IMG/VR virus record: IMGVR_UViG_3300009034_000014
Location: 1 to 64,000 of that record
Length of the DNA: 64,000 nt
Direction: 5' to 3' (one strand)
From: a virus
Positions within the stretch are counted from its first letter, which is position 1. Each line of letters opens with the position of its first letter. Below, piece after piece: positions 2,440-43,974 of this stretch. A program made the translations under genes and the position numbers. A model generated the notes under the pieces. It was not told the DNA's origin and did no database searches. It was given only the letters and a program-made list of their open reading frames with translations.

Positions 2440-2825
2440 ATCCTCATCTCCTGTTGACCGTCGTTTTCCAGTCGGTAGCTGGTATGGCTGAGCAACCCAT
2501 CGCTCTCCACCGTGGTCCAGATCGTACTTATCCCGATCAGTAGCCGCCGGGCCTGGGCCACGTAGGTGCTGACCGTCTTGGCCCGAACCCCCAAGGCTTC
2601 CGCGAGTTCCGACAGGTACATGTACCTGTTTTTTCTCAGAAGCCAGATTAGCCGTTCACTTGGTATTCCTGTCCGCTTCCTGGCCTCTGCGATCTGGCCG
2701 GACTTGAATCCGCGCTCCATGAGCTGCACGTTGTCAAGAGAAGGATCGCTCTGGATCAGAACGGCAATCCGCTCAATCTTCGACTCGCGTTCACGCTTTC
2801 GACAACTTTTATCTTTACCGGCCAT
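2436..2825 (-). CDS. HTH DNA-binding protein (129 aa)
   Basis: The start ATG 2825 has GGGGGAGG upstream and overlaps the stop of the Ala-rich gene (TGATG). The N-terminal half (CRKRERESKIERI, then VQLMERGFKSGQIAEARKRT) matches the short protein at 3441-3650. The C-terminal half contains a helix-turn-helix (MYLSELAEALGVRAKTVSTY, continuing VAQARRLL). A transcription regulator or replication accessory protein is plausible. The long glycine-rich frame upstream of this start is only the antisense of the Ala-rich tail. Confidence 0.65.
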   Translation of the reverse strand: MAGKDKSCRKRERESKIERIAVLIQSDPSLDNVQLMERGFKSGQIAEARKRTGIPSERLIWLLRKNRYMYLSELAEALGVRAKTVSTYVAQARRLLIGISTIWTTVESDGLLSHTSYRLENDGQQEMRI

Positions 2826-3415
2826 CAATTCCTCCCCCGCGGCGGGGAAGGATCCAGCCCGCCGGTTCCCTCCAGCATCCGGATCAGCTTCCGGCAAAAT
2901 GTTCTGTTGGCGGCGTCCCTGGCGGCGTCCGCATCCTCCACCGTCGCCCTCGCCGCCCTCGCCGCCCAAATCGCCGCCATCGCCGCCGGGTCCTCCTCCA
3001 GGGCCGGAGCCGCCGCCAGGGCCGCCGCAACCGCCGCCGCCCTCGCCTCCGCCAACGCCTCCGCCGCCTCCGCCTCCGCCTCCGCCTCCGCCAACTCCTC
3101 GTTGGTAGCAGCCCCGCACAACCAAGCGCGCTTCACGCGGATCGCGTCCCAGCTCCGCTTGTCCGGCTCACGCCCGGCCTTGCGCTCTCGCTTCAGCGCC
3201 CACTCGGCGCACCAGCACGCAAACTCGTGTAGGATCGGGGCCGGAATCATCTCCTCACGAAGCACCACCCACAAAATTTCCAGGGCGGTCAGGTATTTCC
3301 GCCGACCGAACATCTCTCGGATGTACTTTTCATTGTAAGGACCTTCCGCTGGATAGTGTAGCCCGCAGGGTTCCCAGGAAATCACGTCCGTGACCGTGCA
3401 ACGTAGCTTCTTCAT
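2825..3415 (-). CDS. Ala-rich-tail family protein, intact copy (196 aa)
   Basis: The start is ATG 3415 (MKKLRCTVTDVISWEPCGL) with GGAGGG upstream. The N-terminal ~100 residues are conserved with the copy at 352-564. Then comes a low-complexity tail rich in Ala and Glu (EELAEAEAEAEAAEALAEAR), closing with AANRTFCRKLIRMLEG. Compared with the broken copy it lacks 11 codons after TALEIL. Such WCAEWAL...KRAWLxGxATxEEL proteins with Ala repeats occur in many phages, to my knowledge without an assigned role. The tail may form a long helix. Confidence 0.65.
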   Translation of the reverse strand: MKKLRCTVTDVISWEPCGLHYPAEGPYNEKYIREMFGRRKYLTALEILWVVLREEMIPAPILHEFACWCAEWALKRERKAGREPDKRSWDAIRVKRAWLCGAATNEELAEAEAEAEAAEALAEARAAAVAAALAAAPALEEDPAAMAAIWAARAARATVEDADAARDAANRTFCRKLIRMLEGTGGLDPSPPRGRN

Positions 3416-3440
3416 TTTCCCTCCTCTGAACCGCACCTCT

Positions 3441-3650
3441 TCATGCTGCACCATCCATTTCCTCCCGCGTTAACAAAACCGATTGGGGAGGTCTGACTCC
3501 CGTTCGTTGCCTCGCTTCTTCGATCTGCCCGGATCTGAACCCGCGTTCCATGAGCTGCACATTGGTCAGCGAGTGATCACCACGAAGCAGATCAGCAATC
3601 CGCTCGATCCGCTTCTCGCGCTCCTGCTTTCTCCAACTATGATCGGTCAT
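3441..3650 (-). CDS. short paralog of the HTH protein's N-terminal half (69 aa)
   Basis: The start ATG 3650 (MTDHSWRKQEREKRIERIAD) has GAGG upstream. Residues 5-52 align with the first half of the protein at 2436-2825 (VQLMERGFRSGQIEEARQRT), but it ends in a divergent PPQSVLLTREEMDGAA without the helix-turn-helix. It precedes the Ala-rich gene just as its relative follows it, so the locus looks built by segmental duplication. Confidence 0.55.
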   Translation of the reverse strand: MTDHSWRKQEREKRIERIADLLRGDHSLTNVQLMERGFRSGQIEEARQRTGVRPPQSVLLTREEMDGAA

Positions 3651-4884: not shown

Positions 4885-5045
4885 TTATGCACCTCGTTCC
4901 TAAGCCACTCCACCCCTCTCAACCGGGCCGATGCCCACGGTAGTGGAACCCGGCTGAGAGGGGCTGGTGGCACAAAGTTCCCGAGCTTGACATGCAGACT
5001 CGGAGAGTTGATGCGCGACTTTTTTTTGGATCACCGTGGGCATCG
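4885..5045 (-). ncRNA. structured leader RNA D (loop pairs with the 5' end)
   Basis: In the minus-strand RNA, 4949-4963 pairs with 4913-4927 (15 bp including one G-U; the same pair is A-C on the plus strand). The hairpin loop contains 4929-4941, which is perfectly complementary over 13 nt to 5033-5045. The predicted transcription start is about 5045, so the first 13 nt of the RNA can close a pseudoknot with the loop. No U-tract follows; the ribosome site of the 4884 gene comes next. Not similar to a riboswitch class I know. Confidence 0.5.
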
Positions 5046-5051
5046 TTTTGA

Positions 5052-5080
5052 ATCCTAAATCATTCGATTAGCGATGTCAA
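5052..5080 (-). promoter_or_regulatory. sigma70-like promoter P-D
   Basis: Minus strand: TTGACA (5080-5075), 17 bp spacer, TAGGAT (5057-5052). Predicted start near 5045. It drives the leader and genes from 4884 leftwards. The -35 is a perfect consensus; the -10 matches 4 of 6. Confidence 0.6.
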
Positions 5081-5364
5081 GCTGAAAAGACCTTGTCCTG
5101 AAAAAAATCGACGGTATGGCAGTATCGGAAAAATGACCATCGCAATCCGGTATCGTCTGTTATGATCTCGGTGCGGATGCGCCAGCCCTCTGGACACAGC
5201 TTCCGCGCCCTGGACAACAACGAGGATAGGCTACGCCCGCGACGACCGAATTCTTTTTCCAGCCTTCGGCGGCCGATGGCTCTACCTGTGTTCCGTTTCC
5301 GCTGGAAGTAGCGGATCATCCGTTCAGGTTTTGATAACTTAGTCTTCGTCGTTACTTTAGCCAT
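5077..5364 (-). CDS. small basic, probably DNA-binding protein (95 aa)
   Basis: The start ATG 5364 (MAKVTTKTKLSKPERMIRYF) is the first gene behind promoter P-C; the ribosome site is weak. It contains RRRLEKEFGRRGRSLSSLLS then RARKLCPEGWRI, compatible with a winged-helix recognition helix and wing, and a C-terminal strand (LRWSFFRY). Very rich in Arg/Lys. It ends inside promoter P-D. Function inferred only. Confidence 0.5.
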   Translation of the reverse strand: MAKVTTKTKLSKPERMIRYFQRKRNTGRAIGRRRLEKEFGRRGRSLSSLLSRARKLCPEGWRIRTEIITDDTGLRWSFFRYCHTVDFFQDKVFSA

Positions 5365-5475
5365 TGAAGATCCTAAACCGCCTCTCCCCACTTGGCCGGG
5401 TGACGATCTTGGCAAGGAGCCCCGACCAAGGGGGATCAGCGGAACTGGTTTGAGAATTTGCCAGGATCGTCATCG
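5365..5475 (-). ncRNA. structured leader RNA C (H-type pseudoknot)
   Basis: Stem 1 pairs 5458-5472 with 5401-5415 (14 of 15). The loop segment 5421-5430 can pair with 5391-5400 directly after the stem (10 bp, the one non-Watson-Crick pair being G-U on the minus-strand RNA). Together they give an H-type pseudoknot just upstream of the gene starting at 5364. The predicted transcript start is about 5475, so stem 1 begins within the first few nucleotides. Confidence 0.45.
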
Positions 5476-5481
5476 TTTCGT

Positions 5482-5510
5482 ACCATAGACCACTCAAATG
5501 GTAATGTCAA
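5482..5510 (-). promoter_or_regulatory. sigma70-like promoter P-C
   Basis: Minus strand: TTGACA (5510-5505), 17 bp spacer, TATGGT (5487-5482). It lies immediately after the resolvase gene and upstream of the gene starting at 5364. Flanking sequence (AATGTCAAG) resembles the promoter at 5052-5080. Confidence 0.6.
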
Positions 5511-5519
5511 GTCGAAAGT

Positions 5520-5975
5520 TTAACAATTCCTCCACACGTAAGCCCACCACTGAGCGACGAGCACCGCATCCGCTTCGTCGTCTTCCACTTCCTGCCCGCG
5601 GAAGATACGCGCCAGCTTCTTGATCCCTTCCTTGTCCCCACGCTTCAGCATGTAGTACGCTTGCCAAGTTGCGGGATTGACCACAACGATCTCCATCCCG
5701 CGCAGCTTGGCCAAGATCTCCCAGAGGTACCGGCGGTAGAGCAGAGTCTTGATCCCTTTCGGGTTGCGGGGCTTGCGCTGGCCTTTGTGCGTAATGGTCG
5801 TCGCAATGAATTGATCCTCAATCACCAGAGTCTTGACGAACGAGTATTTCTTGAGCACGTTGAGGATCTTTTCGGTTTCGTCACCGTCCACCACGCCGCT
5901 GCGCTTTATGCAGCCTTCGTAGTACAATGCCCAGCCAGCGCGTTTCCCCGGGTCTATTGCAAGACAACCGCTCAT
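5520..5975 (-). CDS. RuvC-like Holliday junction resolvase (151 aa)
   Basis: RNase H-fold resolvase that would cut branched DNA during recombination or before packaging. Visible motifs are the first acidic residue in LAIDPGKRAGWAL (D8), the second in LVIEDQF (E53) and the terminal acidic cluster VEDDEADAVLVAQ (D133/D136). Length fits the family (150-180 aa). ATG 5975 overlaps the stop of the ATPase gene by ATGA, so it is co-translated with the recombination enzymes. Confidence 0.8.
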   Translation of the reverse strand: MSGCLAIDPGKRAGWALYYEGCIKRSGVVDGDETEKILNVLKKYSFVKTLVIEDQFIATTITHKGQRKPRNPKGIKTLLYRRYLWEILAKLRGMEIVVVNPATWQAYYMLKRGDKEGIKKLARIFRGQEVEDDEADAVLVAQWWAYVWRNC

Positions 5976-7168
5976 GGTCCAACGGCCAACCCATCCTCGA
6001 TCACAACTGCCACATCTCCGGTAGCGTCAATCCGCTCAAGCCACACCTGAGCATCGGCTTCGGCCGCCATCTTCCAGACCAGTTCCAGATTATCGGCGTC
6101 CAGATCGTTGCCGTTACGGATTAGCAAAACACTCAACTTGGGATTCATCGCTAATCCCATCGCTACCGATACACGGATACGCTCTGAAGTACTGGCCTGC
6201 TCGAATGGGATCCCCTGATAAGTGACACCATCGTCGTTCAAGCCAAGACCCTCGACAGGAAACCGCGCCCCTTTGATTTTCTTCTGCTTCAGCTCGTCGA
6301 ATAGTTGTATCTCTGCGGTGAACCCTTCTGCAGCGGCCTGCAGCGTTTCGAGTTCCTTCTTCTTCTCCATGTTCTCTTCTTTTAGCCGGATCCTCATGCT
6401 GATTTCATGGGCGTCCTTCATCCTCTTGACCAGCGGAGCTGGATCCTCGATAGGCTCCAGTTTACCGCCCAACTCCTTAAGATCTTGCCGCGCTTGTTCC
6501 AAATCCTTTGTCAGGGTTTCGACTCTTGACTTGGCGATGGTGTGCTCGCGTTTCGTTCGTTCCCGCTCGTTGTTGCTACGGTTGATCCTATCGATCTCGG
6601 CAGCTAGCTCATCGACGTTAGCTGGTTCACTCGGGGTATCGCTGAAGTCTCCCGCATCCAGCAGCAGCGCCTTGAGCCTCTTGATTTCCCGGTTGGTCTC
6701 GGTGCGCTGCGCGTACAGACTGGCCCGTTGGTTGTCTTGCTTGGCGAAGTCCAGCCCAGCGAGCTGCTTCAGAGTAGCGAGTTGTTTATCGGCCTCCATA
6801 CGGGAGAACTCCAGAGGATCGAAAGTCAACTCGCCGACTAGTGCATCAAGCACTTTCTGCGGTGAGCTATATTTCAGCCCCTCCCTGTTGCTCACCACGA
6901 GCGTTCCCCCGCCATTAGCGTTGATGACTCGCCTTACCACCAAGTCATCTGTTTCACAGACAATCGTTGCCTTATCCTCCCCTTCGCGGACGGGGCGGGC
7001 ACACTGCGCGGATTTCCCAGCAAAGGCATAAGCGATCGAATCCAAAGCGCTAGATTTTCCTTGGCCGTTCTTCCCCGCGATAACGACCACCGGACTACCG
7101 TCTGGTTCGATATGTATGGCCTTCAACTTCTTTACGTTCTCGGCTCTAAGACTTAATATTTTCGACAT
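5972..7168 (-). CDS. SbcC/RecF-like AAA ATPase (398 aa)
   Basis: SMC-superfamily ATPase. Walker A is GKNGQGKSS (about residues 32-40). A long coiled-coil arm follows (TNREIKRLKAL through LEQARQDLKEL). The C-terminal half carries the signature-like STSERIRVSVAMGLAMNP and LSVLLIRNGNDLD. The usual acidic Walker B pair is replaced by RNG, and there is no CxxC zinc hook; both features recur in this phage-specific subfamily. Probably works with the nuclease and annealing protein encoded upstream in the recombination module. The start ATG 7168 has GGGAG upstream. Confidence 0.75.
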   Translation of the reverse strand: MSKILSLRAENVKKLKAIHIEPDGSPVVVIAGKNGQGKSSALDSIAYAFAGKSAQCARPVREGEDKATIVCETDDLVVRRVINANGGGTLVVSNREGLKYSSPQKVLDALVGELTFDPLEFSRMEADKQLATLKQLAGLDFAKQDNQRASLYAQRTETNREIKRLKALLLDAGDFSDTPSEPANVDELAAEIDRINRSNNERERTKREHTIAKSRVETLTKDLEQARQDLKELGGKLEPIEDPAPLVKRMKDAHEISMRIRLKEENMEKKKELETLQAAAEGFTAEIQLFDELKQKKIKGARFPVEGLGLNDDGVTYQGIPFEQASTSERIRVSVAMGLAMNPKLSVLLIRNGNDLDADNLELVWKMAAEADAQVWLERIDATGDVAVVIEDGLAVGP

Positions 7169-7194
7169 CGCTTTCACTCCCATTTCCGACCGGA

Positions 7195-7545
7195 TCAGAT
7201 ATTCGCCTGCCGGTCTTCGTCCTTCAACGCACGGGCATGCACGCGCTCGTTCGTATCGCAGCGGAAGATCACCACCACGCCCTTGTCGAAGTCTTGCTCC
7301 TCGTAGCATTCGATCTCCCTGAACTCACGTTTTGAGCGCACGATGTCTGATAGCTTGTCGAGCCGTTCCTTCAGATCCTTGATCTTGGCGCGATGATCCT
7401 TCGCCGACTTCTTCGCCGCTTCCTCCGTCTCGCCCAGCTCCTCGAACAGCTTCCCGAGCGTTCCGGCGCGCTCCACCATCTCAGGGTCAGTCAATTTAAC
7501 CGGACACTCGTGCTTCACTTTCTTGGTCTGAGATTTGTTAGCCAT
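7195..7545 (-). CDS. conserved phage hypothetical protein (116 aa)
   Basis: MANKSQTKKVKHECPVKLTD, then a helical middle (LGKLFEELGETEEAAKKSA) and a coiled segment (KIKDLKERLDKLSDIVRS). The C-terminal part is strand-rich (KGVVVIFRCDTNERVHAR). It sits between the DnaC-like loader and the SbcC-like ATPase, a common place for this type of protein in phages. Its start overlaps the end of the upstream gene. Function unknown. Confidence 0.6.
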   Translation of the reverse strand: MANKSQTKKVKHECPVKLTDPEMVERAGTLGKLFEELGETEEAAKKSAKDHRAKIKDLKERLDKLSDIVRSKREFREIECYEEQDFDKGVVVIFRCDTNERVHARALKDEDRQANI

Positions 7546-7768
7546 CTTTCAGCGCCTCCCTTTCAAGTTTATCGTAGTCCTTCTTCCTGTCTTCTGATTC
7601 GCGGATCTTGATCACGAACTTTCTTCTCAGTCCGTCGATGAACGCTTCTTCTTCCTCCGGTGTTTTTCCCGTAGCCTTGGCGCCCATGCGCGCGGCCTTC
7701 TCGAACCCCTCCCACCAGGCCTTTCTCTTCTCCTCGTCTGTCGGTAACTTGAAATCGAAGTCGATCAC
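7538..7768 (-). CDS. hypothetical helical protein (76 aa)
   Basis: MIDFDFKLPTDEEKRKAWWE and EEEAFIDGLRRKFVIKIRES; charged and helical. The start codon is GTG 7768, overlapping the DnaC-like stop by GTGA, so translation is coupled to the loader. Possibly a replication accessory protein by position only. Confidence 0.55.
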   Translation of the reverse strand: MIDFDFKLPTDEEKRKAWWEGFEKAARMGAKATGKTPEEEEAFIDGLRRKFVIKIRESEDRKKDYDKLEREALKDG

Positions 7769-8412
7769 TCTGGAACCTTTCTGTCTCTTGGCGTACCTCT
7801 ATAGCTCTGCCAATCGAATACTACTATATCGCAACCGTCCTCTTTTAGCCGATCTATCAGTCGCTCGCTTACGTAGTCGCGTAGCTCTGTCATGCCCAGA
7901 TTGGACACCAGCAGACTGGATAGTTCAGAACCGTACCGTTCGTTGAGAATGTCGAAGATGATTATATGTTCGCTATCGGTCCCGTACTGGGTGCCAACTT
8001 CGTCCAGGATGAGCAGATCGGCCAGAGTATATTTCTCGTAGACTTCCTTTTCAGACTCTTCCGCGCCATGGTTCCAGGCGGAGCGAAAGTGTTGGATCAT
8101 TTTGATCATGGTGGATGCGACTACAATTTTCTTGGCCAGGATTAGCTCGCGGGTGATGCCAGCTACGAGATGGTTCTTGCCGGTGCCGGGTCGACCAGTG
8201 AAGATCGCATTTCTGGGTCTGGAATTGCCCACCGTCTCGGCTATTTCTCTAGCTGTGCCCAGCGCGTGTTTCTGCCCATCTGTTTTCGCCTCGTAGTTGT
8301 CCAGAGTGCGGTTGACAAAACGCTTGGCAATGCCAAAGTCCTTCATGGTCTGGTCGATGTTTTTGATTCGCATACCAGCGCTGAACTCTTCGGACTGCGA
8401 TAGTTTTTTCAT
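7765..8412 (-). CDS. DnaC-like helicase loader ATPase (215 aa)
   Basis: AAA+ ATPase of the DnaC/IstB group. Walker A is GRPGTGKNH (residues 73-81; GKNH is usual in DnaC relatives). Walker B is ADLLILDEVG, and a sensor-like LLVSNLGMTEL and arginine-rich RLIDRLKED follow. It would load the host replicative helicase at the phage origin. Directly downstream of, and coupled by ATGA to, the initiator gene, the same order as lambda O-P or phage-borne dnaC genes. Confidence 0.8.
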   Translation of the reverse strand: MKKLSQSEEFSAGMRIKNIDQTMKDFGIAKRFVNRTLDNYEAKTDGQKHALGTAREIAETVGNSRPRNAIFTGRPGTGKNHLVAGITRELILAKKIVVASTMIKMIQHFRSAWNHGAEESEKEVYEKYTLADLLILDEVGTQYGTDSEHIIIFDILNERYGSELSSLLVSNLGMTELRDYVSERLIDRLKEDGCDIVVFDWQSYRGTPRDRKVPE

Positions 8413-9242
8413 AACTTCCTACTCTTTCCGTAGTCGACTTTGGAGTAGTCTGGTTCTTTCGCTTTTGATTTTTTTCTTTCCTTCTCCCCCCACGAGGCTT
8501 TAAATCCCTGCCAGCCCATCATACAGCACTCTGCCAGCACTTCTTCCAACGTCCTGCCCGCTTTCTTGGCCTCTCGCTTTAGCCCTTCTATAGCCCTCTG
8601 TGTCAGTTTGGCATGTTTCCCCATCCGGAGTGTCACAAAGTCTTTTGCTGTTTGGTCTGAGATGCCTTCCTGAATCAGAATGGCGATCTGCTCTTTTTTG
8701 GTGAAATCGTTCCGTGTACGTTTTTTTTGTTGTGTACTATTCTTTCTTTTAAGATCTGGATCTGGATCCGGATCTGGATCCGGAAACGGAAACGGAGATG
8801 GAGACGGGGCATACCCGACGCATGCTGCTAGCATGCTCGTCGCGTGCTTATCGCATGCAGCGGGCATAGCGGACCTTTGATTTCCATAGTGTTTTTGTAG
8901 AGCAGCTTGCCGGGCACGTTCAGATCTTTCCTTATGTCCGACAATCCACCGCTGGTGTTCGTCCCAATCGTGGAATCTGAAATGAGGACACTCGCCATCC
9001 GGAGAATCCATCAACCGCAGGTCGACAAAGACCTTTAGCATGGCTTCCGCATCCCCTGGGTAGTCCACTTCGTCGGCCATGTCCAGAGCTGTCATGTTCT
9101 CTAAGATTCCATCCGTCCGCATCTCGGCAGCAAATGACCAGAGATCCTCAAGGGCAAGGACCCCATCGGCACCTAGCAGCTTTCGGAGCCGCTTTCGTTT
9201 TCGGTGTCTGCGCCATGTAGTGCTTATCCTGAAGTCTTCCAA
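8409..9242 (-). CDS. replication initiator, lambda O / DnaT-like (277 aa), contains the putative origin
   Basis: The N-terminal ~110 residues (FRISTTWRRHRKRKRLRKLL, then ADGVLALEDLWSFAAEM and FHDWDEHQRWI) form a winged-helix-like domain seen in phage replication proteins. The central linker is low complexity (PSPSPFPFPDPDPDPDPD). The C-terminal domain is helical (KKEQIAILIQEGISDQTAKD) and ends in a basic tail. The start is TTG 9242 with GAGG upstream; no in-frame ATG lies near. The DNA coding for the linker carries 11 bp iterons and GATC hexamers. Expression is probably controlled by leader B. Confidence 0.7.
   Translation of the reverse strand: MEDFRISTTWRRHRKRKRLRKLLGADGVLALEDLWSFAAEMRTDGILENMTALDMADEVDYPGDAEAMLKVFVDLRLMDSPDGECPHFRFHDWDEHQRWIVGHKERSERARQAALQKHYGNQRSAMPAACDKHATSMLAACVGYAPSPSPFPFPDPDPDPDPDLKRKNSTQQKKRTRNDFTKKEQIAILIQEGISDQTAKDFVTLRMGKHAKLTQRAIEGLKREAKKAGRTLEEVLAECCMMGWQGFKASWGEKERKKSKAKEPDYSKVDYGKSRKL
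8753..8806. repeat. nine tandem hexamers, GATC-rich
   Basis: GATCTG, GATCTG, GATCCG, GATCTG, GATCCG, GAAACG, GAAACG, GAGATG, GAGACG in an unbroken row, encoding the DP/FP/SP repeat of the initiator linker. Five units contain a Dam-type GATC. Confidence 0.85.
8809..8874. repeat. six 11 bp iterons (GCATGC core)
   Basis: Cores GCATAC, GCATGC, GCATGC, GCGTGC, GCATGC, GCATAG start every 11 bp from 8809, one helical turn apart and hence on the same face of the DNA. The spacers are not conserved. The translated protein (HATSMLAACVG) shows no matching amino-acid repeat. Confidence 0.8.
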
Positions 9243-9350
9243 TGCACTACCTCAAAAAAAACCCCATCCGCCAGTTGGCACGACGCCACAAGGCATCACC
9301 AACGAATGGGGCCACTTCTATCTGTAGTTGGTTTGTGACGACGTGCCATG
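9243..9350 (-). ncRNA. leader RNA B, attenuator-like, ahead of the initiator gene
   Basis: The minus-strand RNA can form a terminator: 9306-9311 with 9262-9267, 9299-9303 with 9274-9278, and 9292-9297 with 9282-9287 (its one non-Watson-Crick pair is G-U on this strand). Eight U follow (9261-9254), right before the ribosome site of the initiator gene. Competing pairings exist: the 5' end 9342-9348 with the loop 9276-9282 (7 bp), and 9327-9332 with 9298-9303 (6 bp). Confidence 0.55.
9254..9311 (-). terminator. intrinsic terminator in leader B
   Basis: Stem CCCCAT/ATGGGG with inner stem GTTGG/CCAAC and eight T on the minus strand. It stands between promoter P-B and the initiator start, so it would act as an attenuator rather than an operon end. 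Confidence 0.55.
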
Positions 9351-9356
9351 TTGCCT

Positions 9357-9385
9357 TTGGTACCACCCACCGAAACCGATGTCAA
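9357..9385 (-). promoter_or_regulatory. sigma70-like promoter P-B with A-tract
   Basis: Minus strand: TTGACA (9385-9380), 17 bp spacer, TACCAA (9362-9357), with a run of A just upstream resembling an UP element. The -35 is perfect; the -10 is weak. Predicted start near 9350. Confidence 0.5.
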
Positions 9386-9399
9386 GCACTTTTTTTTTC

Positions 9400-10833
9400 T
9401 CACTCCCCATCCCCAGCTAAGTCCGTTTCCCGCTTGTCCAGGATTCTTTCTAGCCGGGAGGCCTGCACCGCGGTCATGCCGTAAACATCCGGCATTGATT
9501 CGCCTTCGCCGAGCACGCGTTCCATCCACTTTCTTGCCTCCTCCTCGTCGTCCCAGCCGATGAGCCCGCTTATTCGCTCAAGGGTACTATCCACGATCTC
9601 CTTCGCTAGGTGCACCACCACGCTCTTGGATTTTTCTTGTTCCGGCGGCGCACTCTCTTCCATTGCCTCCGGTTTCGGCGCATGATCAGCGATCCAGTCC
9701 AGGAGCATGGCGTCAAGGTTGTCCAGCCGTTTCGCTGACTGGGATCGGAGCTGACCATCGTGGATATTCAGGCCCTCCTTCCACTCCGCGATTTGCTCCG
9801 GTGCTATGCCAGCATCGTCGGCGCGGCGCTCGATCTCCACAAGACGCTCCTTCTTTTTGCTGCCAGCGGCGGCGCCTGGCTCCAGCTCCGTCCGGGGAGC
9901 TGTCGCGGGGCTCTGTTCCTCACTCGGTCCCGTTTGCACGGTTTCCGGCATGGCACTCGGGGCAGAGGTGGGCTCTGGAGACGTAGGAACACTCTCAGCG
10001 GCCTTCGGTGTTTGTCCCCCTTTCCCCCGTAGCTTGTCCATGACCGAAGCCGTCCTGGAGCCTCTCTGCGTTTCCGGCGCATCTCCCACGGGTGGGAAGG
10101 CGACCTCGATCTTCACAGAACCTTCGCGAATGGCGTTGAACACACCGCGCAACTTCGAGAGCTCGACGGCCCCTATTTCCTCCGTGCTTTGGATCTCCAA
10201 CGAGGCAAGCAGACTTTCTGTGTCAACGCCGAGTTTATGGAAGGTGTCGAGCATGACGCCTCTGGAATACGCGATGGCCTTCGCGTCCCCGAAAGCCACC
10301 TTCCGAGCCTTTGCGTATACCTCATCCACAATGGAGCGGCTAACGATCACGAAGACAACGTTCCTGTAAGAGATCATGGCCGCGGCATTTCCTGTCATCG
10401 TGATCATGTCGTCAGAGTAGCGGTTGCCACTCCGATCCGTGATTCGACGCCGGACTTCTCGCTGGAATAGGACGTTCTTCTGCATGTCCCACGCAGTCGC
10501 TTGTGCCGTGACGTATTTTTTACCCTCTTCGACAATCCTCGTCTGGCACCGAATGTTGCCCCAACTTGACATAGCGATCTCGGCGAGTCTGACGCTGGCC
10601 CCCTCGATGAGCTTGCCACCTCGCTTGTAGGCGTAGAAGCATGATTCCGCTACTTCTTTGTTCAGGCAGGCCAGGTTTTCCATGTCCTGTTTTACCTGCT
10701 CGATGTTTCTGGGGTAGGCCTTGGCTGTGGCCACCTGCATGTCGAACTCGCTGCGCGAAATCTGGGCAATGACTCCGGCGTCTGCGGCTGGGATGATCTC
10801 GATCTCCGGTCCATTGGTTTGTTCTTCTGTCAT
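9400..10833 (-). CDS. probable phage recombinase / single-strand annealing protein (477 aa)
   Basis: The N-terminal ~250 residues (FDMQVATAKAYPRNIEQVKQ, CFYAYKRGGKLIEGASVRLA, DMITMTGNAAAMISYRNVVF) match a phage family found next to YqaJ-type exonucleases. The position suggests a RecT/Erf-like annealing role, but I infer this from context and cannot name the fold. The C-terminal half is a variable Pro/Ser/Glu linker (SVPTSPEPTSAPSAMPETV) followed by helical segments. ATG 10833 follows AGAGGAG. Downstream of the nuclease in the same transcript. Confidence 0.65.
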   Translation of the reverse strand: MTEEQTNGPEIEIIPAADAGVIAQISRSEFDMQVATAKAYPRNIEQVKQDMENLACLNKEVAESCFYAYKRGGKLIEGASVRLAEIAMSSWGNIRCQTRIVEEGKKYVTAQATAWDMQKNVLFQREVRRRITDRSGNRYSDDMITMTGNAAAMISYRNVVFVIVSRSIVDEVYAKARKVAFGDAKAIAYSRGVMLDTFHKLGVDTESLLASLEIQSTEEIGAVELSKLRGVFNAIREGSVKIEVAFPPVGDAPETQRGSRTASVMDKLRGKGGQTPKAAESVPTSPEPTSAPSAMPETVQTGPSEEQSPATAPRTELEPGAAAGSKKKERLVEIERRADDAGIAPEQIAEWKEGLNIHDGQLRSQSAKRLDNLDAMLLDWIADHAPKPEAMEESAPPEQEKSKSVVVHLAKEIVDSTLERISGLIGWDDEEEARKWMERVLGEGESMPDVYGMTAVQASRLERILDKRETDLAGDGE

Positions 10834-10846
10834 GATTATTTCTCCT

Positions 10847-11845
10847 CTATTTGAAATAGGGTTTGAAAGGCCTAGAACCAGGCGAAACTTTCCTGAATTT
10901 TTCCAATGCCTCTGGCTTATTCTGACGGAACCATTCGGCCATTCCATTGGCATCCCATGACTCGCGGTCCTTGCTTAGCCGCCAGAGTATCTTTCCCCAG
11001 TGTCCGGAAACGCCGGAGGAATCACCGATGAATTCCTTGATCGTGTTCTCCTGAAAACGCGTCACCTCCTCCATACTCTTGATCGCGTCCCTGGCTTCCT
11101 GCAATTTTACGGCAGCAACATCTATCTCTGAATTTGATTGCCGTAAGTTTTCGGTAGAATGCCTTGGGTGGGTCTTTGCGAGATAAGCGGCGAAATCCTT
11201 GGACCCGTCGATGGGCGGAGGCTCCTGCTTTATCACGTACTCCCAGAATTTCTCGGTCTTGGCCAGCAGCAGATCGAACATCTCGGGATTGAAACTCAGG
11301 CGGTAGACCCAGAGGTCCCGGCCGATAAGCGGACCTACGAGCCCCTCCTGTTTTTCCAGTGCGCCCATCTGCCATTGCACCTGTGGGAGGTAGTATTCTG
11401 GAACTCCATCGGAAACTTCCAGTGGGCTTATCCAGTCGCGGGCAGTGAATGGCCCCGGGCTCTTGACCTCGGCCACGCACACGGCTTCCGACGCTTTCTC
11501 GCGTAACTCCGAGAAATCCCGAGGCAACTCGCCGTCGAACGCCAGTCCATCTGGCGTAGCTAAGACCAGTTCATGTTTCGGGTTCTGGAAAGTGATCGCT
11601 TTCTTCCCAGTGTTATGAAATATCTTGGTTTCTGTCCGCCGGCCCATCCAATTCAGGAGTGCGTCTTCTAGTTCATTCCCGCGCTCCTGATCGACCGTAG
11701 CCTCCTCGTCTTCCTCTGGCTCCTGAACTTTTTCCTCCCAGACCCTGATCGGGCTCTTCCACGGACTGAGCCCGCAAATAGCTGGGATGTCGCTCGCGGA
11801 TACGCCGCGACGGCGGAATTCTTTCTGCTCCAACGTCAATGACAT
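10847..11845 (-). CDS. YqaJ-family viral exonuclease (332 aa)
   Basis: PD-(D/E)XK nuclease of the YqaJ/lambda-exo type. GVSASDIPAICGLSPWKSPI is the usual N-terminal signature; E56 in ERGNELEDALL, ATPDGLAF and CVAEVKSPG form the catalytic set, and PEYYLPQVQWQMGAL is the conserved QVQWQM helix. It resects double-strand ends for the annealing protein just downstream. ATG 11845 has GGAGG at ideal spacing. First gene behind promoter P-A and leader A. Confidence 0.85.
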   Translation of the reverse strand: MSLTLEQKEFRRRGVSASDIPAICGLSPWKSPIRVWEEKVQEPEEDEEATVDQERGNELEDALLNWMGRRTETKIFHNTGKKAITFQNPKHELVLATPDGLAFDGELPRDFSELREKASEAVCVAEVKSPGPFTARDWISPLEVSDGVPEYYLPQVQWQMGALEKQEGLVGPLIGRDLWVYRLSFNPEMFDLLLAKTEKFWEYVIKQEPPPIDGSKDFAAYLAKTHPRHSTENLRQSNSEIDVAAVKLQEARDAIKSMEEVTRFQENTIKEFIGDSSGVSGHWGKILWRLSKDRESWDANGMAEWFRQNKPEALEKFRKVSPGSRPFKPYFK

Positions 11846-12013
11846 GTCTTACCTCCGAGCAATAGAGTAACATCTTGGTCTGACAAAAAAAAACGAGTTG
11901 CAGCCTCGCCCCCGTCGACCCAGGCAATTTGCTCGCGGGGACGAGCGCCCAGGCCTTGTTAGAGAAGGGCTGCAACTCGAACTTCAACTTTTCTGGATTT
12001 CCCGCGAGCATTG
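11846..12013 (-). ncRNA. leader RNA A, attenuator-like, ahead of the exonuclease gene
   Basis: A perfect 12 bp stem (11968-11979 with 11894-11905) is followed by nine U (11893-11885) on the minus-strand RNA. The 62 nt loop contains 11930-11939, perfectly complementary over 10 nt to 12001-12010, which lies 3-12 nt after the predicted start. A competing local hairpin (GCTCG/CGAGC) uses the same loop sequence. Confidence 0.6.
11885..11979 (-). terminator. intrinsic terminator in leader A
   Basis: Perfect 12 bp stem CGAGTTGCAGCC/GGCTGCAACTCG with nine T on the minus strand, placed between promoter P-A and the exonuclease start. The position implies attenuation rather than an operon end. Confidence 0.65.
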
Positions 12014-12019
12014 AACGGC

Positions 12020-12048
12020 AGCCTAGCAGGGCTAGAATACCTTGTCAA
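12020..12048 (-). promoter_or_regulatory. sigma70-like promoter P-A with A-tract
   Basis: Minus strand: TTGACA (12048-12043), 17 bp spacer, TAGGCT (12025-12020); eight A at 12060-12053 resemble an UP element. It drives the exonuclease-recombinase genes. Confidence 0.6.
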
Positions 12049-12108
12049 GATCTTTTTTTTCGATTTTCTTGAAAGCTCCCACAGAATGAAAATCGTCTGT
12101 GAGGAGGT

Positions 12109-12168
12109 GTGACAGGAAGGGGGGTCTTCGTGTCACGCTGACCGCCGTTAATAGTGAGTTAATGTCAC
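12109..12168. promoter_or_regulatory. candidate operator cluster
   Basis: GTGACA (12109-12114), TGTCAC (12131-12136) and the palindrome GTGAGTTAATGTCAC (12154-12168) lie just upstream of promoter P-A and downstream of a ribbon-helix-helix gene. They could bind that protein. Seen only as sequence symmetry. Confidence 0.3.
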
Positions 12169-12173
12169 CTTCC

Positions 12174-12217
12174 AAAAAAAAGGTGGGAGAAACGAACCCT
12201 TGATCCCCGCCTTTTTT
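12174..12217. terminator. bidirectional intrinsic terminator
   Basis: A8-GGTGGG (12174-12187) pairs with CCCGCC-T6 (12206-12217) around an 18 nt loop. It can end the minus-strand transcript after the ribbon-helix-helix gene and also works on the plus strand, where the one non-Watson-Crick pair is G-U. It separates the zinc/RHH gene from promoter P-A. Confidence 0.65.
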
Positions 12218-12228
12218 CTCTTTCTCTG

Positions 12229-19367: not shown

Positions 19368-19616
19368 TCAGCACCCGCAGTAGCTATCCGACCATTCCCC
19401 ATCCGGGGTCATGTCGGAAAATGTGAAATTCCGGCCGCACTCCCAGCAGTTTTTCGTCTCTGCTGAACGCCGGCGGGGAGCGCGGGTGGTCGTACTCGAT
19501 CCGGCGCAGTCTACGTGCCGAGCACCGCCGCTCTTGCTCCACTCGATCCGGTCACCGACGCTGATCGCGCCGCCGCACACTCGGCAGGTCCCTCGATATT
19601 TCGCCGTGATCGTCAT
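19368..19616 (-). CDS. zinc-ribbon protein sharing the SNF2 N-terminal domain (82 aa)
   Basis: The start ATG 19616 (MTITAKYRGTCRVCGGAISV) has GGAGGAGT upstream. Residues 5-37 match the zinc ribbon of the SNF2 protein (AKYxGxCxxCGxxIxVGxxI, EWSxGxxARHVxC). A second Cys pair (CWECG) and a terminal CGC follow. A stand-alone duplicate of the helicase's recognition module. Confidence 0.6.
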   Translation of the reverse strand: MTITAKYRGTCRVCGGAISVGDRIEWSKSGGARHVDCAGSSTTTRAPRRRSAETKNCWECGRNFTFSDMTPDGEWSDSYCGC

Positions 19617-19852
19617 GACTCCTCCTCGTCGTCGTCCAGCCCGTCCTCGCGGTACAGATCCAGCTCGCACCGCGGAGCGCAGTCACCGCAGAGCCATCCC
19701 GCCGTACTCCCGTCTTCTCTAAGGATCCGGCGAAAAGCCTCGCGGCGGCCTTCGGCCCGGCCGCACGACATGCAGACGACGACGGGGTGAGATGACACGT
19801 GAGTGTCCCCGCCGCCGCCTGCAATTTGAGTTTTTTTGCTTGTCCGTGTCAT
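19613..19852 (-). CDS. small zinc-ribbon protein (79 aa)
   Basis: MTRTSKKTQIAGGGGDTHVS, then CMSCGRAEGRREAF and WLCGDCAPRCELD, giving two CxxC pairs, and an acidic tail (GLDDDEEES). First gene after the 447 bp gap, with a possible promoter directly upstream. Coupled to the next gene by 4 nt overlap. Confidence 0.6.
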   Translation of the reverse strand: MTRTSKKTQIAGGGGDTHVSSHPVVVCMSCGRAEGRREAFRRILREDGSTAGWLCGDCAPRCELDLYREDGLDDDEEES

Positions 19853-20299
19853 CTCGGTTTATTATTACTGCAAATAACGTGCCGTAGCAAATCTGTGTAG
19901 AATCAATGACTTATGCGGCGCTCACTGTCCCCATTTAGACACACACCTATGCAAGCTTTTCACTTATGTAATGATTTCACTGAACTTAGCTGCTATGCAG
20001 TATTTTACCATATACGAAATTATTACATAGTTTTTCGAAGCGTTTACAGGCCGCGTGAGCCTCTGTTTCGGATCGAGGCATAGTCTACTATTCATCGACC
20101 GAAACGCGCGCGCTGTGGGCGCCGCTATCGATTCAGTATGTACCTGATATCTGTAGCGTTTTTCGGCCTATCGCGAACAGAGGCATTCTGGTGCTTCTCT
20201 CTGGTGATCCGGCGAAATGAGGTGATTTGTAAACCACTAATATTACGTAGGTATTTCTGATGCGTAGGATTATGATTTGGAGGGGGATGGGGAGGGCTA
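19853..20299. other. 447 bp AT-rich non-coding gap between late and early halves
   Basis: No convincing gene on either strand: the open frames here lack ribosome sites and resemble nothing. It contains a 9 bp inverted repeat (GCCTCTGTT 20059-20067, AACAGAGGC 20176-20184) and several TATNAT-like hexamers. I see no hairpin with a U-tract. Confidence 0.5.
19862..19890 (-). promoter_or_regulatory. possible promoter for the zinc-ribbon/SNF2 genes
   Basis: Minus strand: TTGCTA (19890-19885), 17 bp, TAATAA (19867-19862). The start would fall only a few bases from ATG 19852, implying a nearly leaderless message with no Shine-Dalgarno. Weak evidence. Confidence 0.3.
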
Positions 20300-42712: not shown

Positions 42713-43126
42713 TCAAGCCACCCCGCGCGTTTGCTTCGCTGGCTGCCTGTCCGAAAAGTGGGCCTTGACCAGAGTCGGTCCGCCCGCAGAGGGATAGTGT
42801 GAATTAAATTCCAAGCGATCAACGTACAAATCGCAGTCAACATCGCCGAGCTGCTTGAAGCAATCGTTATCCTGTAATGTCACACCAGCGGCTTCCAGAT
42901 CAACACGCCGGAACAGCACGTAACCGACTGCGCCCTCGCGCGGTCCACCCTTAGACGGCTCCAAGCCCAACTGTGTTCCCCATTTCACCTGACCGGGTAT
43001 GACTACGATGGTTTTCCTGGCGGCGCCCTGCGCGGGCTCTCTAGCGTCCTCGTCGTAGTACGTACCAGCCCTGTCTATTTTTTCTACGTACACATCCACG
43101 GGGTGTAGCAAGCGAGGCAGGGTCAT
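42713..43126 (-). CDS. head-tail connector-like protein (137 aa)
   Basis: MTLPRLLHPVDVYVEKIDRA and QVKWGTQLGLEPSKGGPREG, then strands. Small, between the connector and the gpS-like gene, typical of a second connector or stopper. ATG 43126 overlaps the stop of the homing endonuclease by ATGA. Confidence 0.5.
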   Translation of the reverse strand: MTLPRLLHPVDVYVEKIDRAGTYYDEDAREPAQGAARKTIVVIPGQVKWGTQLGLEPSKGGPREGAVGYVLFRRVDLEAAGVTLQDNDCFKQLGDVDCDLYVDRLEFNSHYPSAGGPTLVKAHFSDRQPAKQTRGVA

Positions 43127-43974
43127 GACTTTCTCCTCGCATTGTAACGCAGAAGCCCTTCTCGAATTTTTGTCTTGCTTTCCGCACTGTGCCGTTTCCC
43201 TCTGTGAGACAGGCTCATTTTCTTTCGCGTCGCGTCGCTGTGCTTCTTTCCTAAATGTGCTCTGCGGATTTTTTCCCGCGTCTCGGTGGAGGTCTCGTGA
43301 GTCAGGCCCATGTGAGCAGCAGCCATATTGGCCCGGGCTTCTTCTGAATGTTTCCTACCGAGATTGGATTGCCGCAGCTTTTCGATGGTCTCGGGGCTTA
43401 CGATCTTGCCCCGATGAGCGTCGCCGATTTTTCTTTTGGTGGCATCCGTGTGTTTACGCCCACGATGAATTTTGCTTAGCTTCGCCTTTGTCTCCGCGCT
43501 GTATTTTTTACCCAGATTGGCTTGGCGCAACTTCTCGCGTGTGGCCGCAGTGACTTCATGACCCATCTGCGATGCACGAAGTTTTTCACAAGATTCCTTG
43601 GACCATTTGGTACCCTTGAATCTTCCCTTGATCTTAGCCTTTTGTTCCTTAGTCCACTTGTAGCCTCGACTCCCGATCTGCCCGCCCTCCACTGCGTTGG
43701 TCAATTTGTTACCGATCTCTTTTTTGAGATAGGCGATCCATGCCCTTTCGGCATCTCCAAGTGTTGAGGGACTGAGATGTTCTTCGAGAACCTCAATCCC
43801 GTACTTCAACCCAGCATCGCGGAGGTTTTGGATCCAGCAGCTTTTGTGGTCCTGTCCCTTGCGGTACCAATGGGCACGGGCGCGTACGTGTCCAGTCGTG
43901 CTCATACCAATATACCGGATCAATCCGCTACGAGGATCGGTCAGACCGTAAACTATGTATTTGCTCATGCTCAT
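43123..43974 (-). CDS. GIY-YIG homing endonuclease with NUMOD3 repeats (283 aa)
   Basis: N-terminal GIY-YIG core: YIVYGLTDPRSGLIRYIGMS, RARAHWYRKGQ, and the catalytic Glu region ERAWIAYLKKEIGNKLTNAV followed by EGGQIG. Then six or more NUMOD3 DNA-binding repeats (SAETKAKLSKIHRGRKHTDA and similar). The start at 43974 overlaps the connector stop (ATGA). An invasive gene inserted cleanly between two essential connector genes. Confidence 0.85.
   Translation of the reverse strand: MSMSKYIVYGLTDPRSGLIRYIGMSTTGHVRARAHWYRKGQDHKSCWIQNLRDAGLKYGIEVLEEHLSPSTLGDAERAWIAYLKKEIGNKLTNAVEGGQIGSRGYKWTKEQKAKIKGRFKGTKWSKESCEKLRASQMGHEVTAATREKLRQANLGKKYSAETKAKLSKIHRGRKHTDATKRKIGDAHRGKIVSPETIEKLRQSNLGRKHSEEARANMAAAHMGLTHETSTETREKIRRAHLGKKHSDATRKKMSLSHRGKRHSAESKTKIREGLLRYNARRKS

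Follow-up and report, generated by a model that had tools for sequence, protein, structure and literature searches.

The 64,000-nucleotide (nt) stretch analyzed here, called the window, covers positions 1 to 64,000 of the 83,438-base IMG/VR record IMGVR_UViG_3300009034_000014, from an uncultured phage. All recognized genes of the window read leftward. The interval that bears leaders A to D (positions 4885 to 12048) is a replication and recombination module, which encodes a RecE/YqaJ-like exonuclease (10847-11845, minus strand), a replication initiator (8409-9242, minus strand), a phrog_3657 recombinase-like protein, a DnaC-like loader, an SbcC-like ATPase, a RuvC-like resolvase, and small proteins. 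The genes behind the leaders encode the exonuclease, the replication initiator, and small basic or zinc-ribbon proteins. Five minus-strand promoters are each followed by a leader (A to E) that very probably folds as a pseudoknot RNA structure, and the first strand of that structure begins almost at the predicted transcription start. Leaders A to D had been named in a preliminary description of this DNA; leader E, and leader F in a distantly related phage, were additions from scanning.

The preliminary description placed four TTGACA-N17-TANNNT-like promoters on the minus strand, at 12048, 9385, 5510, and 5080, and all four are present. Promoter A (12020..12048, TTGACA-N17-TAGGCT), which was graded good, ranks in the top three of the record's minus-strand promoters; promoter B (9357..9385, TTGACA-N17-TACCAA) has a poor −10 element; and promoters C (5482..5510, TTGACA-N17-TATGGT) and D (5052..5080, TTGACA-N17-TAGGAT) are near consensus. 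The probable promoter E (19861..19890, minus strand; TTGCTA-N18-AATAAT or N17-TAATAA) is AT-rich and promoter-like and lies outside the interval first reported. The motif CTTGACA-N14-20-TANNNT was found three times in the window, compared with 0.32 occurrences expected by chance. All transcription starts given here are predictions from promoter position.

Leaders A to E, all on the minus strand, have a single crossing order, a–L1–b–L2–a'–L3–b', in which a and a' form helix S1 and b and b' form helix S2. Leader C had been described as an H-type pseudoknot, correctly so, and the same crossing topology, missed in the preliminary description, is also present in A, B, and D. The pairing previously reported for those three leaders, between the 5' segment and the loop of a downstream hairpin, is also real: it comprises 10 base pairs (bp) in A, 7 contiguous bp and 15 of 16 positions overall in B, and 13 bp plus a G-U pair in D. 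L1 measures 21 nt in A, B, and E (in B, with the CCCC core counted as the start of S2), 22 nt in C, and 67 nt in D, where it holds a small hairpin. L2 measures 6, 6, 5, 5, and 7 nt in A to E, and L3 measures 3, 0, 0, 0, and 1 nt, respectively. In all six leaders, including F, S1 begins 5 to 9 nt past the −10 element, i.e., at about +1 to +3 of the predicted transcript, and fewer than about 2 to 4 unpaired nt precede the helix at the predicted starts. S1 spans about 10 to 15 bp, stems across the leaders span 10 to 17 bp, and S1 and S2 have no common base in B to F. These pseudoknots of messenger RNA (mRNA) leaders are similar in layout but, as had been claimed, unrelated in sequence; pairwise comparison of the leaders gave no significant match.

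Leader A is the least regular. Strand a of its S1 (TGCTCGCGGG, 12001..12010, minus strand, as are all leader coordinates in the window) begins 9 nt past the −10 element and pairs with a' (CCCGCGAGCA, 11930..11939). An internal loop interrupts S2: the outer portion, S2b, joins CGAGTTGCAGCC (11967..11979) to GGCTGCAACTCG (11894..11906) and is followed by a U9 tract (11885-11893), a terminator-like arrangement, and the inner portion, S2a (11946..11955 with 11917-11926), is a weak helix with several G-U pairs. Leader A also has a strong competing nested fold. In leader B, S1 (9333..9348 with 9276..9291) begins 8 nt past the −10 element, and S2 joins CCCCATTCGTTGGT (9298..9311) to 9262..9275, which abuts a' and is followed by a U8 tract (9254-9261); the Shine-Dalgarno (SD) sequence of the replication initiator gene comes after this tract. 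The U tracts behind A and B had been correctly noted in the preliminary description.

Leader C has S1 at 5458..5472 and 5401..5415, beginning 9 nt past the −10 element, and S2 at 5421..5435 and 5386..5400. Strand a of leader D (CGATGCCCACGGTG, 5032..5045) begins 6 nt past the −10 element and pairs with 4929..4942, and S2 is formed by 4948..4964 and 4912..4928; in both C and D, b' abuts a'. In leader E, S1 is formed by GAGATGACACG (19845..19855) and 19789..19799, and S2, a 17-bp helix with three G-U pairs, is formed by 19807..19823 and 19771..19787. The a' strand of leader E overlaps a possible GTG start of the zinc-ribbon open reading frame at 19613-19852 (minus strand); an SD-like GGCGGGG lies in S2, and the GTG lies in S1. 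The knot could block translation initiation at leader E alone; the ribosome-binding site (RBS) is outside the knot in A to D and F.

Several further elements lie upstream of promoter A on the minus strand: a terminator-like hairpin with a T8 tract at about 12215-12174; three GTGACA/TGTCAC elements within 12060-12228; and another small H-type pseudoknot at about 12101-12061, composed of CACAGA, CGATTTTC, TCTGTG, and GAAAATCG. The elements within 12060-12228 are possibly an operator or the end of the previous transcript. Elsewhere in the window, one gene is present in two diverged copies (352-597 and 2825-3454, minus strand), with MKKLRCTVTDVISW common to both.

Both strands of the whole record were scanned for crossing helix pairs, with helix energies taken as stacking sums. 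On the transcribed strand, the first scan ranked D first, B second, C fifth, and A eighth; when the a–L1–b–L2–a'–L3–b' geometry was imposed, D ranked first, B second, and C fourth, and the new site E (19855-19771) emerged. A match at 19037-18903 lies inside the helicase reading frame and was not counted. The record has 20 intergenic stretches that are 90 nt or longer; in a test of these, D scored −31.1 (shuffle mean, −13.7; standard deviation [s.d.], 1.7), B scored −28.5 (−12.7; s.d., 1.4), C scored −25.9 (−13.2; s.d., 1.6), and E scored −21.3 (−14.8; s.d., 1.6). These values place B, C, and D about 8 to 11 s.d. and E about 4 s.d. beyond the shuffles, with 0 of 200 shuffles reaching any of them, and leader A gave a P value of 0.025. 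On the transcribed strand of the 20 stretches, the geometry was significant nowhere except at leader sites A to E; one opposite-strand stretch, 42804-43162, also passed, with a weaker structure.

With the start of S1 confined to nt 1 to 6 of the predicted transcript, none of 1,000 dinucleotide shuffles equaled leader A, B, C, D, or E, and leader F was likewise unmatched by 1,000 shuffles. The top five of all promoter-linked matches in the 83,438-nt record were D, B, C, E, and A, and the same scan of phages λ, T7, HK022, and Mae-JY30 gave no comparable promoter-linked site. The tests were designed after the sites had been seen, and the P values are to be read as measures of strength rather than as a blind test. 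At the RNA level, internal helix appositions on the transcribed strand comprised about 17 G-U pairs versus 1 A-C, a ratio that became 9 to 1 when S2a of A and S2 of B, helices whose call depends on G-U pairs, were left out; G-U pairs on the transcribed strand had been cited in the preliminary description. After a rough penalty of 9 kcal, the best nested fold was weaker than the pseudoknot in B, C, E, and F and about as strong as it in D. That part of the earlier interpretation in which functional structured RNA leaders stand behind early promoters is supported.

Searches for relatives gave little at the level of sequence. Rfam had no match to the leaders at the gathering score and chance-level matches only at E values up to 5; a DNA search of phage records returned no relatives of the leaders; and IMG/VR single-protein searches with the RecE-like, DnaC-like, and SbcC-like proteins returned no close relatives. 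An IMG/VR search with the terminase gave ten matches, most of them 63 to 81% identical, and in the nine terminase-match records searched, the SbcC-like and RecE-like genes were absent. The 62-kb relative among them (contig L093-L096) has close structural genes, mostly about 40 to 75% identical at the protein level, and an entirely different early region. This contrast suggests that the replication module carrying the leaders may have been exchanged as a unit. Tracts of GGTCTA/GGTCTG hexamer-like repeats are present in two separately found phage contigs, at 81-634 of L093 and at 8098-8298 of L064.

An alignment with Microcystis phage Mae-JY30 led to 65 viral and 12 genome loci, with identities of no more than 45%, and one of these, the distantly related phage L010, carries a sixth copy, leader F. 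Its near-consensus promoter, TTTACA-N16-TATAAT, is followed 6 nt past the −10 element by S1 (6600-6612/6657-6669) and then by S2 (6641-6651/6670-6680), with an L1 of 28 nt, an L2 of 5 nt, and an L3 of 0 nt. An SD sequence and an ATG at 6707 come behind leader F, a replication-initiator-like gene lies further downstream, and an SSB-like gene ends just upstream. No relatives of L010 were found near leader F. The nearby DnaB-like helicase gene of L010 (8013-10463) contains an intein-like insertion.

A scan of both strands of 92 sequences, with cutoffs of a promoter score of at least 8 and of −16 or stronger for both helices, gave six matches, namely, B, C, D, E, F, and a weak one in L078; one shuffle of 91 of those 92 sequences gave none. 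In 28 further related-phage stretches, promoter-linked matches were found only at the level of shuffles. A match in L100 with a perfect promoter was rejected because it falls within a structural gene and its helices are weak, and one at 3231 of L090 was rejected because it lacks a promoter. When the relatives' loci were scanned without restriction, on energy only, GC-rich coding sequence and repeats swamped the output.

The geometry suggests what such leaders might do. Every early transcript would open with the 5' strand of the pseudoknot, at the predicted start or no more than about 3 nt from it; with a placed 5 to 9 nt past the −10 element, pairing would include the 5' terminus of the mRNA. 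Because L3 is 0 to 1 nt (3 nt in A), the two helices can stack, and S1 and S2 would then form a quasi-continuous A-form duplex of roughly 24 to 31 bp, with the reservation that S2 of leader A is interrupted. In such a stack, the a'b' strand would face b and then a, and the single nick would be the mRNA 5' terminus itself. The triphosphate end would be buried in the helix with no single-stranded 5' tail; RppH and 5'-end-dependent RNases (RNase E, or RNase J where the host has it) would be unable to start; and the replication and recombination mRNAs would be stabilized as a result. The downstream RBS would remain free in every leader except E.

RppH of Bacillus subtilis requires two or more unpaired nucleotides at the 5' end, and decay by RNase E is controlled by 5'-terminal pairing (PMC3997798). 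A folded, knot-type viral RNA mechanically blocks an unrelated bacterial exonuclease, RNase J1 (PMC5760640). On these grounds, and because the RBS lies outside the knot in A to D and F, protection of the 5' end of early mRNAs is favored here. The probability that such protection is the main role of the pseudoknots is put at about 45%.

Several points weigh against this role. The 5' ends rest on predicted starts. A simple terminal hairpin protects too, and protection alone leaves the use of a knot unexplained. Two of the leaders are imperfect examples: S2 of leader A is interrupted, and the nested fold of A beats a pseudoknot counted with S2a alone, and leader B combines its poor −10 element with an S2 that depends on G-U pairs. 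Finally, leader F aside, the scanned related-phage stretches gave chance-level matches only, and the searches found no close homolog of any leader.

A rather unlikely alternative makes the pseudoknots operators recognized by shape, at which a phage protein would repress translation or coordinate the early operons; gp32 acts in this way on the T4 gene 32 leader. Candidates are a protein that binds or anneals single-stranded DNA and the nearby-encoded small basic or zinc-ribbon proteins. In L010, the SSB-like gene ends just ahead of leader F, and the genes that would be controlled are those for the exonuclease, the replication initiator, and the small basic or zinc-ribbon proteins. The T4/T2 gene 32 leader is, as the leaders described here would be, a phage mRNA pseudoknot with two stacked helices upstream of a gene of DNA metabolism. 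Its stems are short, and stacking is of the classical H-type, at the S2-5'/S1-3' junction; in contrast, the present leaders have an L3 of 0 to 1 nt, stems of 10 to 17 bp, and unrelated sequences, which would leave shape as the only basis for recognition. The T4 operator likewise lies in a 5' leader and has two coaxial helices, but its A+U-rich unstructured repeat between knot and RBS, which gp32 needs, is absent behind the knot in C, D, and E (PMC3014915). The RBS, moreover, is not within the knot except in E.

RNase III processing is unlikely. The stacked duplex of about 24 to 31 bp would be a processing site, and trimming of the leader would determine when, or in what ratio, early gene products are made; RNase III sites have this role in the early mRNAs of T7 and lambda. 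RNase III requires a helix of roughly 20 to 22 bp, a length that the combined helix would exceed if stacked; sequence conservation would be unnecessary, and the helix is located in the 5' leaders of early genes. However, plain long hairpins would be enough, and the fixed 5'-terminal start, the L1 of 21 to 22 nt, and the L3 of 0 to 1 nt have no obvious role in recognition.

Attenuation or put-type antitermination, the interpretation offered in the preliminary description, is distinctly unlikely as a general account and was not supported as a common theme. S2 would be a terminator whose action is modulated by pairing of the 5' segment with the loop, or a put-like RNA would modify RNA polymerase. 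The leaders are promoter-proximal, a strong nested fold competes with the knot in leader A, and A and B resemble attenuators and intrinsic terminators in having a GC-rich helix followed by U8-9. Leader A may indeed have an exclusive nested fold, and A and B could additionally terminate transcription. Attenuators have mutually exclusive helices, however, whereas S1 and S2 are compatible in B to F: in B, C, and D (L3 of 0), the helices abut exactly without a shared base and can therefore form together, which favors helices that coexist and speaks against attenuation as a purpose common to the leaders, and in E, L3 is 1 nt. A U tract behind a terminator helix was found in A and B only and is absent from C, D, E, and F. 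HK022 put RNA is also a structured RNA just behind early phage promoters, where it binds the zinc-binding domain of the RNA polymerase β' subunit and suppresses termination. The put RNAs are about 70 nt long, with two stem-loops and with sequence similarity between putL and putR (PMC9378689), whereas the leaders are single crossing pseudoknots without mutual similarity and with no significant match to the HK022 genome. At the DNA level, inverted repeats often occur close to phage promoters and origins, a generality to which no result here adds support, but a reading of the sites as DNA-level repeats (operators, origin, or recombination sites) or as chance is highly improbable given the 0 of 1,000 shuffles per leader, the predominance of G-U over A-C appositions on the transcribed strand, the fixed start relative to the −10 element with constant L1, L2, and L3, and the absence of the geometry at such strength from the record's other intergenic regions.

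Protection of the 5' end by terminal pairing has known counterparts. Stabilizers of the Escherichia coli ompA type resemble the leaders in pairing near the mRNA 5' end and in leaving the RBS free. The known examples are simple terminal hairpins, whereas the leaders, at five promoters of one phage, would place the 5' end in the nick of a crossing pseudoknot with long stems. Flaviviral exonuclease-resistant RNAs (xrRNAs) are, as the leaders would be, knotted RNAs set against 5'-3' exonucleases, and they block bacterial RNase J1 in vitro; an xrRNA, however, rings an internal strand and stops an enzyme that is already running, whereas the leaders would pair the 5' terminus itself. The put RNAs, the gene 32 operator, the ompA-type hairpins, and the xrRNAs each share one aspect with the leaders, and none shares the whole set. 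The arrangement was not found described in the literature searched, the coverage of which was incomplete.

The leaders may, as a tentative proposal, represent a new class of cap-like 5' structure of phage mRNAs: a long-stem pseudoknot with a zero-length L3 whose own 5' terminus is the nick in a continuous duplex, found at five promoters and once in a distant phage. Such a structure would evolve without sequence conservation and might serve as sequence-independent armor against 5'-end-dependent host nucleases or RNA-sensing defenses. If the 5' end is indeed buried in a stacked pseudoknot, phages would own a protein-free counterpart of the cap that needs no conserved sequence and would, for that reason, go unseen in searches by homology or by covariance model. 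The geometry (S1 at +1, an L1 of about 21 nt, an L2 of 5 to 7 nt, and an L3 of 0 to 1 nt) provides a concrete search rule for such elements and predictions that are testable on short synthetic RNAs.

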